Assembly: GCA_027946365.1 (NCBI GenBank)
Contig: JAPEUQ010000015.1
Location: forward strand, 434,001-498,000
Reading direction: 5' to 3'
DNA from: Kalmusia sp. IMI 367209
Taxonomy: Eukaryota; Ascomycota; Dothideomycetes; Pleosporales; Didymosphaeriaceae
DNA length: 64,000 bases
Shown: in pieces, positions 1,710 to 54,538 of the stretch
Numbering within the stretch: position 1 is the first letter of the stretch
Layout of the letters: each line of letters starts with the position of its first letter
Program-made: the position numbers and the translations under genes
Notes under the pieces: generated by a model
Seen by the model: the letters and a program-made list of their open reading frames with translations, nothing else
What the model was told of the DNA's origin: nothing
Databases searched by the model: none

Positions 1710-3207
1710 CAGCCATAGGAAGACCCGAGGTCCATCCTCCCCCTACAAAACAATGCTCGTCTTGTCTCCGCTCCGTCCTGCAACTTCCGCTTCCGAGCGC
1801 GCGCGCCCAGGCGAATCCCGCACCCACTCTCCAATCCTTCCGCGCAATCCACCTTGTTTCGCATCCACAACCACCGACATCACATCCGGGCGGCGCCCAG
1901 GTGGCCTGACCCCCATCTCACCGCCATTGTCATGTTTCCTCCGCGCAGCGCGTGTGCGTGCGTGCGCGCGCCGACAGATATCCGTTCCCTCTCGCCAATC
2001 TGCGCGCTAGACAACCATCACCACCACATGTGGAGACCCTCTTATTAGGAGCCTACGTGTGCCGACAAGCCGCGTTAACCTCGTTCGAGAAGGCCTTCAA
2101 TATTCGCGTGTGCGGATTCGGCGGAAGCGAGCCAGACACGCAGAAAGGCCCAAGACGTATGCGCGAACGCGTGAATCCACAATGGGTGCTAGAAACGCAA
2201 AGTGCTGCCGAGTCAAGCAACACTCGTGCTTTCTGTGTTCTAGACACGTGCTTGTGCGCGCGCACTTGGTACAAAAAGCCATGTAAAAAAAAAAATATAC
2301 TTTTGCCAATACGTGGGTAATGCGCAAGCGCTATCGGAGAGAAGAGCGGGTCAACACCAAGACACTCGTACAAGAGGCGCCGGTCGGCATCCCTCGAGCA
2401 ACGTCGCTGCTCCGTGCCTTTCGCCCTGCATGAGGGGCGGTCAGGCCTGCGATGTTCGCCATGTTGTGGCTTGCCAGATGCGGCGTGCAAGTGACAGTCG
2501 CACGGCGCAACAGTAACGCCGTGATGACGGGGAGAAAGAGGGGAGGGGTTCGCTCGCCGTGGGCTATTCTTTGCGCTGGCTTGGTAAGAGGATTGCACAA
2601 GCTGTGGCGTGGCGTCGGGGGGCAGCTGAGCATTAGCTCGCAACCACGACTTTCGTGGCAAGGGGACATGGTTTGTCTAGACTCGAGCTTACTTTATGGC
2701 GTGGTTTCAATTGCAATTCGGCTTCCACGTGTGTTACAAGCCTGACCAAAATAGATCAAAGGAACAGCTTCGCGTCGATTCATAAGTGTAGATGGGTCGT
2801 AAATAACAAATATGCTACTCATGCAGAGTAGTGAATCCAAGCACCATCATGTGAAAAACAATATTTCCAAACTGCTACTGGGGCTACAACTATCCGCCCT
2901 AGCTCACCTCTCGCTTTTCAAAGAGCCCGCCCCATCCGTCGTCACCACATCCATCGTTAACACCCATCCTGCCAATCTATCCAGCTAAACGCTCAGACAT
3001 ACCAACGTTCAAATCATGCATGAGTGGGGCATCAAAGCCAGCGCCACCCACTGAAAACGGTTCATGCTCGCATCCGTCCTCCGTCATCCTTGCGGTCTAT
3101 ACCCCACACGTCAAACATACATTTTCGCTCTCCGGTCCGAGATCCCTGACCCATACTTTGTCACCTTTGGGTGCAGAGGCAGACCATTGTTCCTATTACC
3201 GAAACAT

Positions 3208-27500: not shown

Positions 27501-28142
27501 TGTCTATAAAAGGTTGCGAGTCATGCATGATCTCAATATTTTTTATCATGTGCATGTGCAGCGCCTTCGAAATTCGATTTCATCGCCGAGATTTTAGACA
27601 TGGATCTGCATAATCTTATGTATCATTGAGAATTATCAATTTTAGGATAATACATGAAATTAGCTTCATATTGAGTCATAAATGAAGGCTTCCCGTTTAC
27701 GATGCTCATATCACCGTACCTCACGTTCGCATAAGCACATATTTGTCATCTTAGTTTCTAATTCGATATATACAATTCTAGAGAGAAGTGTCAGTGCTAG
27801 CCAGGAGCGACATAGTCTGTGTCGACACCAACAACTAATCTCCATGCGTCCGCGTATAATCGGCGTGACACAGACAGTCACCTTATTGAGGAGACACTAG
27901 AATTGCTTTTTGGTGACTGCACCCTAGAGAACCTGGTGGATTCTACGCGATGCAGTCTTTGTGACTAAATGATCAGTACTAGGAAATGTGTAGTCATACC
28001 GCTTGCACGTAAGTATAAAAGGACGTGGCCGCAGACAATCCAGGATTTGACATGCAGAATCTGCTTTAAATTTTCCCCAATTCATTTCAATGGTACAATT
28101 CAAGTCTCAATAAATTGCGAATAAATCACGACCTCGATAAGA
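24599..28142. other. gene-poor accessory stretch
   Basis: About 3.5 kb without a supportable gene. AT content rises compared with the left neighbour, and frames are short and broken on both strands. No transposase, reverse transcriptase, terminal repeat or tRNA was recognised. Confidence 0.5.
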
Positions 28143-29240
28143 ATGTCGGAAACACCGTTCAAGTCGTCAGAACTGAGGAAAAATTTGGGAGTAACATCAC
28201 TCTTCACTATTGCCAACCTTTCCTCAGATGTGAATCGCTACGGGTACAGAAGCGACCAGGATCGTCAGAAATTGATCGATGCGCGAGTCTACCTCACCTC
28301 AAATCCTATATTGAAGTCTAAAGAACGATACGAAGATGATTTCGAACTGCATCATGGTCAGAAAGTACAAGAAAAGGAGGTCAAAGAACGTAGGACAGAG
28401 TGTAAAGAAGGGTGGGATAATTCAACCTTCCCGGAAGCTCACCTCGTGCGAAACCTCGAGAACATATTCCGCGAGATCCCGTATTGGAAAGTGAAGACAT
28501 GGCATCTTATGGTCCTTGGTCTTCCTTCCGTTCATTTAAGACCCTTTCAGCATGTCTCTCATCGACAGTATTGGTTAGCTATGGAAATTGTCGCCAACAT
28601 CCTCACGGCAATAGAGGTTTGCTTTGGTAGACGGAGCTACTCTGAGAACCATGTCGTTTCTATAGACACCACACACATGACAAAATACCCAACCCCAAGT
28701 CCAGGTGGTATCGACCAGAAATATTTCAACGAAATTCTCTTCGACCGTACGCATCACCTAAGAGAAGGGAGTCGACACCCTTTGCGACTGAAGACGAGAC
28801 TGCTATCTGGGATGCTGGGCAAGTTTTCAAGCAAAAATATCATCAACGATACGGTTTTGATCATGTTTAAGCCAATGAATCCTATCAGACAGCTAATTCA
28901 ACACTTGTTGGAGGATAGGAAACGAGAGGATCTCCCAAGCATGATAATTTGTTCACCTGGAGAAGTCGACAACAAGATGCCTCAAGGGGAAGGTTATTTC
29001 AATATGCTAAGCGACCTCTACTGCGGTGACAGGAATTCAGATCTCGTGGACAAGTTTCTTACAGAGAATTATGACAGAACAGATCTGTTGACCGATCAAA
29101 CTCTTGACACGCTGCCAGATGGTTTTACGGATGAAGAAAAGCAAACGGCAAAGGATATCTTCGGTACACTATGTCTTTTTGTGAATCTAAACCTATACCC
29201 CTGTAGCTCAACAGAGCCAGAAACGCCGCCAAAAAAGTAA
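28143..29240 (+). CDS. hypothetical protein, 365 residues
   Basis: A long uninterrupted single-exon frame in AT-rich surroundings, with ATG at 28143 (context AAGAATGTC). I do not recognise a family. Composition is that of a soluble protein: balanced charges, Trp and Cys scattered, no signal peptide or membrane helix. A hydrophobic helix YWLAMEIVANILTAIEVCF sits near residue 145, and a Lys/Pro-rich tail (SSTEPETPPKK) ends the chain. The length (1.1 kb open in AT-rich DNA) argues strongly for a real gene. It lies 0.9 kb left of the RiPP precursor, so it could belong to that cluster, but nothing in the sequence proves this. Confidence 0.6.
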   Translation: MSETPFKSSELRKNLGVTSLFTIANLSSDVNRYGYRSDQDRQKLIDARVYLTSNPILKSKERYEDDFELHHGQKVQEKEVKERRTECKEGWDNSTFPEAHLVRNLENIFREIPYWKVKTWHLMVLGLPSVHLRPFQHVSHRQYWLAMEIVANILTAIEVCFGRRSYSENHVVSIDTTHMTKYPTPSPGGIDQKYFNEILFDRTHHLREGSRHPLRLKTRLLSGMLGKFSSKNIINDTVLIMFKPMNPIRQLIQHLLEDRKREDLPSMIICSPGEVDNKMPQGEGYFNMLSDLYCGDRNSDLVDKFLTENYDRTDLLTDQTLDTLPDGFTDEEKQTAKDIFGTLCLFVNLNLYPCSSTEPETPPKK

Positions 29241-30126: not shown

Positions 30127-30498
30127 CTAAGCTTTACCACTGGATTCTGTGGTCTTTCCGTAATCCCAGTCTGGTTGGGCCTCCTCTCTTGATTTCTTGG
30201 TGCGACCGTAGTCCCAGTCAGGGTGAGCTTCTCCGGCCGATGCCTCGATCTTCTTCCAGTTGATCGAAGTGTAGGTGGCGTCGACGTCCGCGTTGTCTCT
30301 AGAAACTTTCCTCCAGTTGTTCGCAGTGTAAGTGGCATCTACATCCGCGTCGGAGACTTTCTTCCAATTTATAGAAGTATATGTGGCATCGACTGTTGTA
30401 TCGTCGGTTGCCGCTCTGGAGGCGATGTTACTGGATTGTGGTGTTGGAAGGCAAACGGTGACTGTCGAAAGCGCAGCGAGAGATAGAAAGAACCGCAT
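30127..30498 (-). CDS. candidate RiPP (dikaritin-type) precursor with tandem core repeats
   Basis: A single exon of 123 residues. A signal peptide (MRFFLSLAALSTVTVCLPTP) targets it to the secretory path. Then come three repeats VDATYTSINW-KK, VDATYTANNW-RK and VDATYTSINW-KK (Tyr at 40, 57, 76), followed by two repeats HPDWDYG-RTKK and QPDWDYG-KTT (Trp at 95 and 111, spacing 16). Basic pairs follow four of the five units, as in fungal precursors cut by a Kex2-type protease; KK/RK are weaker Kex2 sites than KR. Tyr-containing repeated cores behind a signal peptide, next to a UstYa gene, are the hallmark of ustiloxin/phomopsin-type pathways. A further DWDYG unit lies in frame directly behind the TAG stop (positions 30103-30126). 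The mature product is unknown. Confidence 0.75.
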   Translation of the reverse strand: MRFFLSLAALSTVTVCLPTPQSSNIASRAATDDTTVDATYTSINWKKVSDADVDATYTANNWRKVSRDNADVDATYTSINWKKIEASAGEAHPDWDYGRTKKSREEAQPDWDYGKTTESSGKA

Positions 30499-31248
30499 CT
30501 TCGGTGAGTTAGCTCAATCTTGAGCAGATAGCTTTGAAAGAGTGGAAAAGGTGTTGTAAAGTCGGTGGCCGTCTATCGCCGGATCGGAAGCCATGTTAAA
30601 TATCTTGCCTTTCGACGTTTGGGGGCCACATAGATGTGGCAACATCCAAGTGACGATAAGCCCCCAAGGAAGTGTCTTTAGGGGCGATTCGTACCGAATA
30701 CATATTGATACTAAGCCTCTATCATATCAATCGCGGCCTTTCAATTCTAGAAGATAACCTAATTTATCCCGAGTCTTTGCTAGTCTTCAGTTTGAGGTAG
30801 TACTTTGCGATGTAGGAACCAACTGTGGTGGGCTATGCCTAGATTCTCTAGTTCGCTATTTCTCCGATTCGCCCTTGAATGGTATAAAAATTGGCGAATG
30901 GTGTTATGATGGGTGGTCTGTTGCACCTTCCCAATGAGGCTAGTTGTGCTATGGGTCTACGGCCAGGGAACGTGGTTAGAACAAATGATTAGCGAGTAGC
31001 TGTTAAGGATGATAGGATTAGGCGTTCAACGGTATGACGTTGAATGCTTAATCATCTGCGCGATGTGAGGATTCCTGAGCTCGACACATGTATGTTCACA
31101 CATACACGTACGGAGGTACGCATTACAACTGTCGGGTTGGTACCTCAATCGCTCCTACCATCTCGCGTCATTAACAAGCTTTAGCCCCAGTCGAGCCTTA
31201 CAACGGTACATACCTGGACACCACTAGCCTCTATATATAGCGGCTACA
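30499..31248. promoter_or_regulatory. divergent promoter between RiPP precursor and UstYa-like gene
   Basis: 750 nt between the two ATGs, with no coding frame of note. It holds TATAAAAA near 30882 and CTATATATAG near 31231, only ~10 nt before the UstYa ATG, so that one is unlikely to be its working TATA box. Two inverted repeats lie at 31090-31120. Co-expression of the two genes from this region is likely but inferred. Confidence 0.55.
31090..31120. promoter_or_regulatory. two adjacent perfect inverted repeats, candidate regulator site
   Basis: GTATGT-TCAC-ACATAC (31090-31105) is followed one base later by CGTAC-GGAG-GTACG (31107-31120). Both are perfect palindromes with 4-nt spacers, about 130 nt upstream of the UstYa ATG. 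A dimeric regulator such as the Zn2Cys6 protein encoded at 32865 could bind here; the classic CGG/CCG half-sites are not arranged in the usual way. Confidence 0.4.
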
Positions 31249-32117
31249 ATGGGCACCAACGTGGGAGAGCACTCCGAGCCGCTGCTTCCGATCGATCTCA
31301 CACGTCCCTCATCGGATATCGAAGATGGCGCAATACGCGAAAAGTCTTACAATCCTACAAAATTCTATGAAAAGAAAGCCTTTTTGTATGCGTCAGCATT
31401 GTGGTTTGCGGGTGCGCTGCTACTGTTTGTGTCCGCGCTTCTGATTTATACACGGTCACGTGGAAGTGAACCGAACTCAATCATATACTGTGGGTTCGCC
31501 AAAACGTGGTTTGATCACTCATTAACCAAGCGCCCAGCGCCTGTTAATGGTCACGTGCGTTACAAAACTGTTGTGTTCGATGCTTCGCTGGGAAAGAAGA
31601 CTATCTACATGGAAGATCCTTCGCCAAGGGTAGATAAGGCATGGGAAGACTTATATGGTAAGTCTAATGTGAGAAAAAGGCGCTATCCTACTGCTAATCA
31701 TGTAAACAAGACTTCGGCATATCCTGGATTACTGCCTCCGAAGCAGCTCAGCTTCCCAACGCCACTTCTCGCCTGCCCGCTACTCCCTCCCACTACGTGA
31801 CAGGTCTCGATGTCTTTCACCAACTACATTGCCTCAATCTTATTCGCAAACGACTCAACCTTGATTACTACGTCAATGACACACATGTCCACGTCGAGCA
31901 TTGTTTAGACCAAATTCGACAGGCTCTAATGTGTAGTGCAGATACTGCAACAATCCCCTGGTCATGGAGCAAGAGCCAGCAGAGGACGATAGCTGATGCG
32001 AGGACGACGCATACATGTAGAGATTTTGACCAAATTAGAGACTGGGCAAGAAGCAGGCATGTGGAAGGAGAATTCGATAAGAATACTTACGTGGAGGGAA
32101 GTGCGCTTAGCGACTAG
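31249..32117 (+). CDS. UstYa/DUF3328-family oxidase of RiPP biosynthesis
   Basis: Two exons, 31249-31657 and 31711-32117, give 271 residues, a usual UstYa length. The 53-nt intron (GTAAGT...CTGCTAATC...ACAAG) restores the sequence LYDFGISWITASEAAQLPN, typical of the family. The N-terminus is cytosolic, one membrane helix spans about 45-66 (YASALWFAGALLLFVSALLI), and the lumenal part carries both family motifs: HQLHC (173-177) and HVEHC (197-201), thought to bind the metal. The ending HTCRDFDQIRDWA is also conserved. UstYa proteins cyclise or otherwise oxidise Tyr-containing core peptides, as in ustiloxin and asperipin pathways, or modify other secondary metabolites. Its divergent neighbour is a precursor with repeated Tyr/Trp cores, so the first role is inferred. 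Confidence 0.9.
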
Positions 32118-32864: not shown

Positions 32865-34479
32865 ATGATTACATCTATAGTACCAAAGAAGACCAGGTCC
32901 AGCACTCCAAGGGCGCGAACAGGCTGCCAGACCTGTCGGTAAGCTTACAATGTCGTACGGTAGGAACCACTTGACGGACCTCTAACAGGATAACAGGAAA
33001 AGGCGCGTAAAATGTGACGAAGCGAGACCATCATGTCGCAGATGCCTGCAAGCAGGCTGGAAGTGCGATGGCTATACAACGGACAAGGCAGACCTTACAT
33101 CTGTAGCGGTCAAGCAAGATAACTCCGCACCAATACTTGCAATAACGCGATACTCGCTGCCCTTTCGGATACCAGGGTCGCAAAAGGATCGCCAATTGCT
33201 GCATTACTTCTGTGTGCAAGGCTCCCACGACCTAGCCGGCTTCTTAAACTTCGATTTCTGGACTCGCACGGTGCTCGAGCAAAGCCACCAGGAGCCGACA
33301 GTACGCCAGGCACTAGTCTCACTTAGTTCATTACATCTTGACTGTACTACTGCATCAAGCGGCGCAGCAAGAAATGAGACCCTAATGCAGTACGGCAAAG
33401 CTCTTCGGATGCTACAAAAACGTCTGAGAACGCCTGGTACCGATGCTACTAGGACAGCGCTTGTATGTTCCATACTGTTCCACTGCTTTGAAGCTACGAT
33501 AGGGAACAGTCAGGCTGCTATGCATCATCTTCAGGGTGGGCTGAGCATGCTGTCGTCCTGTCATCAACAGAGTCTCGAACGGACTGAGGAACTTGACGTA
33601 TTGTCTCTCGAGCTCGAGAGGCTGGATCTTCAGGCCACACTTTTCTACGATCAGCCTTCAGCTCATGTGGTATCCGAGAAGGACGAAAACAGCAATGACG
33701 CGCCCAACGTAAACTCTTTCCGGCGCCTCAGTGATGCCCACCGCACACTCGTCAAACTGATCTACAGAGGCTTCCATTTGATCAGTGATAATATACCACA
33801 CAAATTTGCATCGAGGGAGTTCGTTCCTCCCCCAGTTCTCCAGCAGAAACTAGAGCTTTCCAAGAGCCTCCATCAGTGGAAGGCCATGTTCGACGCGTTC
33901 AAAGAGAAATTGGATCAAGAAGCCATCAAAGAATATGGCTGCCAAATCCTCCTCATTCACTGGCATTTGGCCACCATGCTCCTCGACGCCGTATATCCAG
34001 TCGACCGCACGGTGTTCTGCGCCTCTCCCAATCCCCGAGCAATGCACGTACTCGAACTAGTCGAAGGCGTGCTTGCACGCACCACGCAGCAAAACCCGGC
34101 CTCCCCGACCTCCAGACCTCCCCAGCGCGTCATCTCCTCCGAGATCGGCGTCGTCGCTCCGCTCTTCGCTTTAGCCTTGAAATGCGCCGACGACGAAGTG
34201 TGCGATCGAGCTCTCGAGCTGCTCAACACGACACAGAGAAGGGAGGGTCTGTGGGAAGCTTCACACATGGCGTCTATGATTCAGCAGCTCAGAGATGCGA
34301 GGGAGCGCCGGTTAGCGAATGCGGACGAAGAGTTTCTCGTGAAGGCGAGAAGTCAGTCGCTGGAGCAACTTTTCTGGTATGAGTTTAGTAGTCCGTACGA
34401 AGGGCTGAACATGATGACTACGTATGTGGAGCAGGCGATTCTGGGCATTTATGCTCCTCCCGAAATTCTCTCGGACTAA
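32865..34479 (+). CDS. Zn2Cys6 (fungal C6) transcription factor
   Basis: Two exons, 32865-32938 and 32997-34479, give 518 residues. The binuclear zinc cluster is complete with spacing CX2CX6CX6CX2CX6C (Cys 21, 24, 31, 38, 41, 48), and the 58-nt intron interrupts it right after the second Cys, a common position in this class. A basic stretch precedes it (PKKTRSSTPRART). The rest is the helical fungal-specific regulatory domain (LLHYFCVQGSHDLAGFLNFDFW ... QPTVRQALVSLSSLHL-like region), matching the DUF3468/Fungal_trans_2 type often found in secondary metabolite clusters. Its place 0.75 kb behind the UstYa gene suggests a pathway regulator; this is inference, and such factors are also abundant outside clusters. 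Confidence 0.87.
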
Positions 34480-53584: not shown

Positions 53585-54538
53585 ATGCGGTCTCTCTCAA
53601 AATATGTTGTGCTCCTCCAGTCAACCTTACACCTAGCAAGCGCCCACTGTAAGCACTTCACTACCGTGTCTAGAGCTACCCCCTAATTACCTCCCTTCCC
53701 ACCCCAGATTCCCTTTCCGTCGTCCGCATCAACAACACCCTCAGTGCCGACTGGCAATACGTCCGTAGAACAACCTACACTGCCTACCCCTGGCAGGACA
53801 TCCTCGACCCAGAGACGGTCCGCTGCGGCTGGGGCGCCAACACGCGCGGCAACGAAACACAGACGGCGACTATCCGCGCAGGCGGCACCGTGGGCCTACG
53901 TGTAGGGCCTTCATCAGAAGGCGCGTACGAGCAGGGTTTGTACCACGCAGGGCCGGCTTATGGCTACATGTCACGTGCACCGGCCGACCTAGAGTCGTAC
54001 GAGGGCGACGGCGAGTGGTTCAAGATCGGGCAGTACGGGGCTCTCAAAGACACGCGGTGGATTGTTGATGGGGATTATGGCCCATACATGGAGGTAACGA
54101 AGCAACTCGCCTTCCCCCGTGAAGGTCCGTCTGATTCCGACAGCTGACGTTCACCGTCCCGCCCACTACGCCGCCGGGAAAATACCTCCTGCGCGCCGAG
54201 CATCAATACCCGTTGTTTGCTGGTATCGAGAATATACCAAATAATCCCTTACCCTTCTTGCAGCAATTCATCAGCTGCGTGCACCTTGACGTCGTGGGCG
54301 AAGGAGGCGGCGTACCTCAGCCCTTGGTCAAGTTCCCGGGCGCGTACGCGATGACTGATCCAGGTATGTCGTACGGCTTTTGGAAGTGAAGGGAATGTAT
54401 GGCTGATGAGGTTGTCTAGGCATTGATGTGCCGGACAGGTGGACGTATGCTGCGAGGCGGAGCAGCGATCCTGCAGTACGGGCTACGTATAATATTTCGG
54501 ATTACGAGTTCCTTGGTCCGCCGGTGTGGACGGGTTGA
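53585..54538 (+). CDS. AA9-type lytic polysaccharide monooxygenase, divergent
   Basis: Four exons: 53585-53648, 53708-54093, 54144-54363 and 54420-54538, giving 262 residues. A 20-residue signal peptide ends at ASA, leaving His21 as the new N-terminus, the first copper ligand. The second His of the brace is His101 in LYHAGPAYGYMS. Family landmarks are WQYVRRT, VRCGWGA, the ATIRAGGTV strand, GEWFKIG, KYLLRAEH and the PGAYAMTDPGI end. Unusual: the axial Tyr (QxY in AA9) is Phe192 in QQFISC, and the conserved LH pair near the active site is LF (174-175). Secreted, acting on cellulose or related glucans; substrate unknown. All introns are in frame. A 41-nt GT-AG stretch before QQFISC would break the frame and was not used. 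Confidence 0.85.

Follow-up and report, generated by a model that had tools for sequence, protein, structure and literature searches.

The window, a stretch of 64,000 nucleotides from Kalmusia sp. IMI 367209, appears to contain a minimal dikaritin-type RiPP locus, in which a precursor with new core sequences would be modified by a single UstYa protein as in asperipin-2a biosynthesis. From the sequence we give this reading a probability of roughly 0.8. A gene for a repeat precursor and a gene for a UstYa/DUF3328 protein are adjacent and divergent, and the core residues of the precursor bear the marks of selection. The strain belongs to the Didymosphaeriaceae and is one of 15 endophytes that were sequenced together (PMC10027605). 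Its genome assembly comprises 42,784,582 bases in 30 contigs, and the window is part of contig C7 (1,204,277 bases).

Repeat precursor and selection on its cores

The precursor gene occupies 30127..30498 on the minus strand and was read as one exon encoding 123 amino acids and a stop. Its N-terminus, approximately MRFFLSLAALSTVTVCLP (30445..30498, minus strand), resembles a signal peptide and passes a crude hydropathy screen, suggesting that the precursor is probably secreted. Behind this hydrophobic start the units follow in the order TVDATYTSINW-KK, DVDATYTANNW-RK, DVDATYTSINW-KK, HPDWDYG-RTKK and QPDWDYG-K. On the minus strand, unit 1 (DATYTSINW plus K) is at 30361..30390 with the second K at 30358-30360, unit 2 (DATYTANNW plus R) at 30310..30339 with K at 30307-30309, and unit 3 (DATYTSINW plus K) at 30253..30282 with the second K at 30250-30252. 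The two PDWDYG units are at 30205..30222 (unit 4) and 30157..30174 (unit 5). A preliminary description of this DNA had reported five tandem Tyr/Trp units in a 123-residue reading frame, four of them followed by basic pairs. Coordinates, strand and units were all recovered. The pairs stand directly after the three YTxxNW units and within RTKK after unit 4, and unit 5 is followed by a single K. No basic pair precedes unit 1, and KR is absent from all of the unit sites.

A 10-residue word occurs in three copies in the precursor at an identity of at least 7/10, and none of 2000 shuffles of its residues produced three copies. Over 12 codons, units 1 and 3 are separated by 7 synonymous changes (about 7.3 sites) and no nonsynonymous one (28.7 sites), giving pS 0.95 and pN 0. 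With changes treated as independent, the probability that 7/7 would be silent is about 1.5e-5. The corresponding values are pS 0.75 and pN 0.12 for units 1 and 2, and pS 0.55 and pN 0.10 for units 2 and 3. Between the two copies of PDWDYG there are 3 synonymous differences and none that alters an amino acid. Because seven synonymous changes between units 1 and 3 are accompanied by no amino acid change, this comparison indicates that the core residues are held by selection. It also indicates that the repeat copies are old and that recent duplication does not account for their likeness.

Relatives of the precursor were sought among 5.8 billion proteins (E<=0.001). The 2 matches were the window's own protein and P0002, from a 930-base contig of an ENA metagenome (E=6.4e-7). 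P0002 carries the signal-like start MRITLSLLTLSAIVTALPAPQ, together with DVDATYPTNNWRK and DVDATYTANNW. The YTANNW core is exact, the signal, DVDATY and NW are also kept, and GQSK, without a basic pair, comes after the second unit. The five long units known from the precursor and P0002 fit the pattern DATY[TP][SAT][IN]NW, in which Tyr, Asn and Trp are invariant. A profile built from both proteins recovered the same two at E<=10 and nothing further. No annotated precursor was found at E<=10 in four Didymosphaeriaceae that have an orthologue of the UstYa protein, in a protein search that misses unannotated small genes. As judged from these protein sequences, the result argues against readily assuming that the precursor is conserved across the family. 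Within the Kalmusia genome no clear paralogue of the precursor was found, the next best match having E=0.23; three further matches (E=0.23 to 4) were taken as noise. Pfam gave no family above cut-off, and its one sub-threshold match, to a viral glycoprotein (E=0.068; 13.2 bits where 25 are required), was put down to composition.

Structure and relatives of the UstYa gene

The UstYa gene (31249..32117, plus strand) runs away from the precursor gene across a gap of 750 bp, confirming the head-to-head arrangement described earlier. The shared upstream region (30499..31248, no strand) contains TATA-like words at 30883 and 31232. CGG(Nx)CCG words are present in both intergenic stretches of the locus, for example at 30563, and are not claimed as regulator sites.

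The gene most likely has three exons (31249-31489, 31538-31657 and 31711-32117) encoding 255 residues, and not the 271 of the preliminary, two-exon reading. The exons are separated by a likely 48-nt intron, GTGGGT...CAG (31490..31537, plus strand), and a 53-nt intron, GTAAGT...AAG (31658..31710, plus strand). The 48-nt intron is in frame, and it was probably missed, because relatives align without that stretch. Its excision turns IIYCGFAKTWFDHSLTKRPAPVNGHVRYKT into IIYSPVNGHVRYKT, which closely resembles IYSPVQDHVRYKT in P0003 and P0004 and IYSPVQDHIRYKT in P0006. The 255-residue protein aligns without an insert to all three, and identity to P0003 rises from 73% in the two-exon reading to 77.6% in the three-exon reading. 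Against the intron, the annotated protein of the same gene (P0007) and P0054, from a metagenome, keep an insert there. The length given in the preliminary description thus most likely falls, while its HQLHC and HVEHC motifs are present, both encoded in exon 3. The two-exon reading matches PF11807 with E=1.6e-50 (172.4 bits against a cut-off of 25). The public model, N0V90_011376 (P0007, 169 amino acids), keeps the 48-nt stretch and splices out the part with both HxxHC motifs; annotation-based surveys would therefore read this UstYa protein as truncated.

Orthologues of the three-exon protein are present in four Didymosphaeriaceae: Didymosphaeria variabile (77.6% identity), Karstenula rhodostoma (71.5%), Paraconiothyrium brasiliense (71.4%, in a model without the membrane stretch) and Paraphaeosphaeria sporulosa (69.5%). 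Identity to proteins of other named organisms is 49% or less among the 120 matches listed of 137; two unnamed pieces score higher over shorter stretches, P0054 with 56% across half of the protein and P0096 with 59% across a quarter. A tree was built from 37 rows, namely this protein and 36 hand-picked from the 120 listed relatives, a set that does not include RiPP reference enzymes. In it this UstYa falls into one clade with the four orthologues and P0054 (support 100/100). Of the 120 listed relatives, 72 were aligned; H153, H156, C157, H180 and C181 do not vary among them, and H177 is kept in at least 90% (numbering of P0003). In the Karstenula rhodostoma protein (P0004) the second motif reads PFAHC, with its first His replaced by Pro; this copy may have lost activity or have altered properties.

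In the structural model of the orthologue P0003 (mean pLDDT 78) there is one long N-terminal helix (38-68), and the motifs lie on helices 150-164 and 174-192. The layout of one membrane helix and two HxxHC motifs is taken from this orthologue model and not from the Kalmusia protein; it fits the single membrane helix of the preliminary description. Sequence searches of solved structures gave no match to the UstYa protein at E<=1. Of 27 fold matches to solved structures the best had E=2.6, and none was credible. The DUF3328 enzyme CctR, a cyclochlorotine hydroxylase, is described from AlphaFold models, mutants and metal analysis as a binuclear copper homodimer with two coppers per monomer and O2 as oxidant (PMC12435403). 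Its modelled membrane helix and HxxHC(x)nHxxHC motifs on paired helices resemble those predicted here, but its substrate is a non-ribosomal peptide, which it hydroxylates instead of forming a ring (PMC12435403). From its family, we infer that the Kalmusia UstYa protein would bind copper and make rings.

Genomic context and known systems

A Zn(2)Cys(6) transcription factor gene (32865..34479, plus strand) lies 3' of the UstYa gene and may be the pathway's own regulator. Its open reading frame at 32986-34476 matches PF00172 (E=5.9e-7) and PF11951 (E=5.2e-10); exon 1 (32865-32938) and the start of exon 2 (32997) were placed by eye. The Pfam scan of the neighbourhood covered the UstYa protein and 29 of the 97 window ORFs of at least 80 amino acids, and the remaining ORFs could hide short exons. 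This set yielded no tyrosinase, methyltransferase, P450 or MFS transporter, and none of the 29 ORFs has an NRPS or PKS domain or encodes a reductase or a multidrug transporter. UstYa profile matches in the window fall at this gene only, giving no second DUF3328 gene. The scanned ORFs include an amino-acid permease at a distance of 6 kb, which is the closest transporter among them, and an alpha/beta hydrolase at 15 kb; the other Pfam-matched neighbours have no clear link to the pathway. Because the scanned neighbours bring no tyrosinase, methyltransferase, P450, NRPS or PKS, the locus may be small, with a precursor, one UstYa and perhaps a regulator.

Downstream of the precursor gene, a stop-to-stop ORF of 371 amino acids (28125-29237) has no Pfam family at E<=0.1 and is a possible lineage-specific gene. 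Elsewhere in the window, an AA9-type lytic polysaccharide monooxygenase gene has an exon at 53674-54144 (E=1.3e-10).

The genome gives 102 UstYa profile matches, and the 100 above cut-off merge to about 71 loci; the enzyme alone therefore says little. Some of these loci lie in groups, for example at C4:1094-1105 kb, C25:97-103 kb, C9:415-423 kb and C26:2660-2670 kb. Precursors were screened for in 34 loci and the window (182 kb) as single ORFs of 50-350 amino acids with a hydrophobic start and at least three repeats. Three of the 8 resulting rows were without basic pairs (one UstYa protein and two ORFs elsewhere in the window). The other five were this precursor three times (L012, L031 and the window), a second precursor (L030) and the antisense strand of the latter. 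Of the 30 UstYa-centred loci (L001-L030, about 1.5 kb either side, some overlapping), 2 thus contain a precursor that has three or more repeats and basic pairs, both times head-to-head, and the screen found no further one in the 64-kb window. Five triplet-shuffled controls gave 1 repeat match in total and none with three basic-pair units. In the second divergent pair (L035, G000:C27:872500-876500) the UstYa ORF is at 701-1396 on the minus strand and the precursor at about 2354-3173 on the plus strand. The two overlapping ORFs of that precursor carry [TS]EFAPWYRATNILPASD seven times and a variant of it once, together with KR and KKR sites. The [TS]EFAPWYRATNILP repeat precursor on contig C27 resembles that of the window in forming a divergent KEP/UstYa pair, but has more copies, and KR and KKR in place of KK and RK; from its sequence the pair is independent of the window pair and unrelated to it in core.

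The core of asperipin-2a is FYYTGY, and the cores in the window are YTxxNW and DWDYG. The asperipin-2a system of Aspergillus flavus otherwise resembles this locus in its repeated Tyr-rich cores and small size, and its precursor has a signal peptide, to which the signal-like N-terminus here would correspond. Like this locus, it has a single UstYa homologue (PMC7329392). A reductase and a multidrug transporter distinguish it from the window ORFs scanned. The pair has a Zn2Cys6 gene beside it, whereas the published account of the asperipin precursor reports none around it (PMC10512285). Ustiloxin and phomopsin come from a KEP precursor and a UstYa family enzyme, a combination that the pair in the window would share, and the ustiloxin cluster has a regulator, ustR (PMC10512285), to which the candidate regulator may correspond. 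Their pathways have 2 and 5 UstYa proteins, respectively, and a tyrosinase (PMC7329392), whereas the window has one UstYa and no tyrosinase counterpart among the 29/97 ORFs scanned.

KEPs were defined by Umemura (2020) as having a signal peptide for the ER and at least three tandem repeats of at least 8 amino acids between KR, KK, RK or RR (PMC7329392). The survey, which used a repeat score of 0.6, found 7,878 KEPs in 1,461 fungal strains, and 1,758 of them (22%) had DUF3328 neighbours, most often as the next gene, with Tyr in 65.6% of those repeats (PMC7329392). KEP/DUF3328 pairs are therefore a known and common kind. Dikaritins are currently defined by genes for a KEP precursor and a UstYa homologue (PMC10512285); here the gene of a putative KEP precursor and a UstYa gene are neighbours, 750 bp apart. 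An older five-gene definition (Ding) listed a tyrosinase, a methyltransferase, several DUF3328 proteins and a transporter or peptidase, and was later dropped (PMC12048977); no tyrosinase, methyltransferase or second DUF3328 gene appeared among the 29/97 ORFs and the UstYa protein.

In line with the earlier remark that the cores match no known dikaritin, neither YTSINW nor YTANNW occurs in the main text of any of 5.39 million papers, although supplementary tables might list them. DWDYG does occur as a string in at least two unrelated papers among 20 of 130 matches listed. Passages of a Trichoderma RiPP-mining paper make no mention of DUF3328 (PMC7099791). Within the searches made, the cores, the presence of two core types in one precursor and the likely correct model for a publicly truncated enzyme are likely to be new.

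Proposed pathway and alternative readings

As read from its sequence, the precursor starts with a signal-like stretch, behind which come five units, each consisting of an acidic spacer and a Tyr/Trp core. It would enter the ER/Golgi and meet a membrane-anchored UstYa homodimer. Each monomer would bind two copper ions through the two HxxHC motifs, and the enzyme would oxidise the cores using O2. The ring would most likely be closed between the side chain of Tyr and a second residue within its core, either at the Asn/Trp end or Trp itself. A Kex2-type protease would then cut after KK or RK, a carboxypeptidase would trim the basic residues and a further protease the spacer. Small cyclic peptides of two families, YTxxNW and DWDYG, would be released from one precursor. 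KK and RK are weaker Kex2 sites than KR, and Kex2 processing is therefore less certain than the preliminary description implies. That one UstYa cyclises both unrelated core families by a Tyr-Trp side-chain crosslink is suggested because the Tyr/Trp pairing is invariant, and we regard it as doubtful; this ring type is not known from any dikaritin.

The proposal of a small RiPP pathway gains support from the dikaritin parts that can be read from DNA (a signal-like start, Tyr cores in tandem that are accompanied by basic pairs, and a neighbouring UstYa with HxxHC(x)nHxxHC), from the selection on the cores and from the second such pair in the genome. The same basic pairs and conserved linear motifs would be seen if the precursor yielded an unmodified, Kex2-processed linear signalling peptide, like a pheromone or hormone, and the UstYa neighbour were unrelated or acted elsewhere. 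Ascomycete pheromones have the form WC...CW, to which the units bear no resemblance; they are without Cys. The majority of published KEPs, 6120 of 7878, have no DUF3328 neighbour, but mating-factor KEPs are almost never found beside DUF3328 (PMC7329392). Given about 71 loci in 42.8 Mb, the chance that a KEP falls within 1.2 kb of some UstYa locus is about 0.4%, and this genome has two such divergent pairs. A linear peptide is thus improbable.

UstYa proteins also serve non-RiPP pathways (PMC12048977), which counts against the RiPP reading. DUF3328 enzymes hydroxylate and chlorinate in cyclochlorotine biosynthesis and are found in polyketide and astin clusters (PMC12435403, PMC12048977). The UstYa protein and regulator might accordingly act in a cyclochlorotine- or astin-like oxidation, beside a repeat protein that is secreted without processing and has a structural or effector-like role. 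The 29/97 ORFs scanned showed no NRPS or PKS domain, a basic pair directly follows each YTxxNW unit, and the copies are near-identical as protein but very different at silent sites. We consider this arrangement very improbable. Still less credence goes to the repeat ORF being a chance ORF and not a gene. The lack of a Pfam family above cut-off and the single homologue among 5.8 billion proteins would fit such an ORF, but three copies in 0/2000 shuffles, the strong silent-site bias among copies and the signal and motifs shared with P0002 stand against it.

A minimal dikaritin-type RiPP locus remains the preferred reading. A role of its product between endophyte and host or against competitors is a guess. 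The dikaritins reported up to a 2022 review numbered only five (PMC10512285), against 1,758 KEP genes with DUF3328 neighbours, and this gap gives the locus its interest. The public UstYa model without both catalytic motifs is an example of how automatic annotation can lose such a pathway. With two or three genes, a single enzyme and two types of compact core, the locus would be a convenient test system for how UstYa proteins choose residues.
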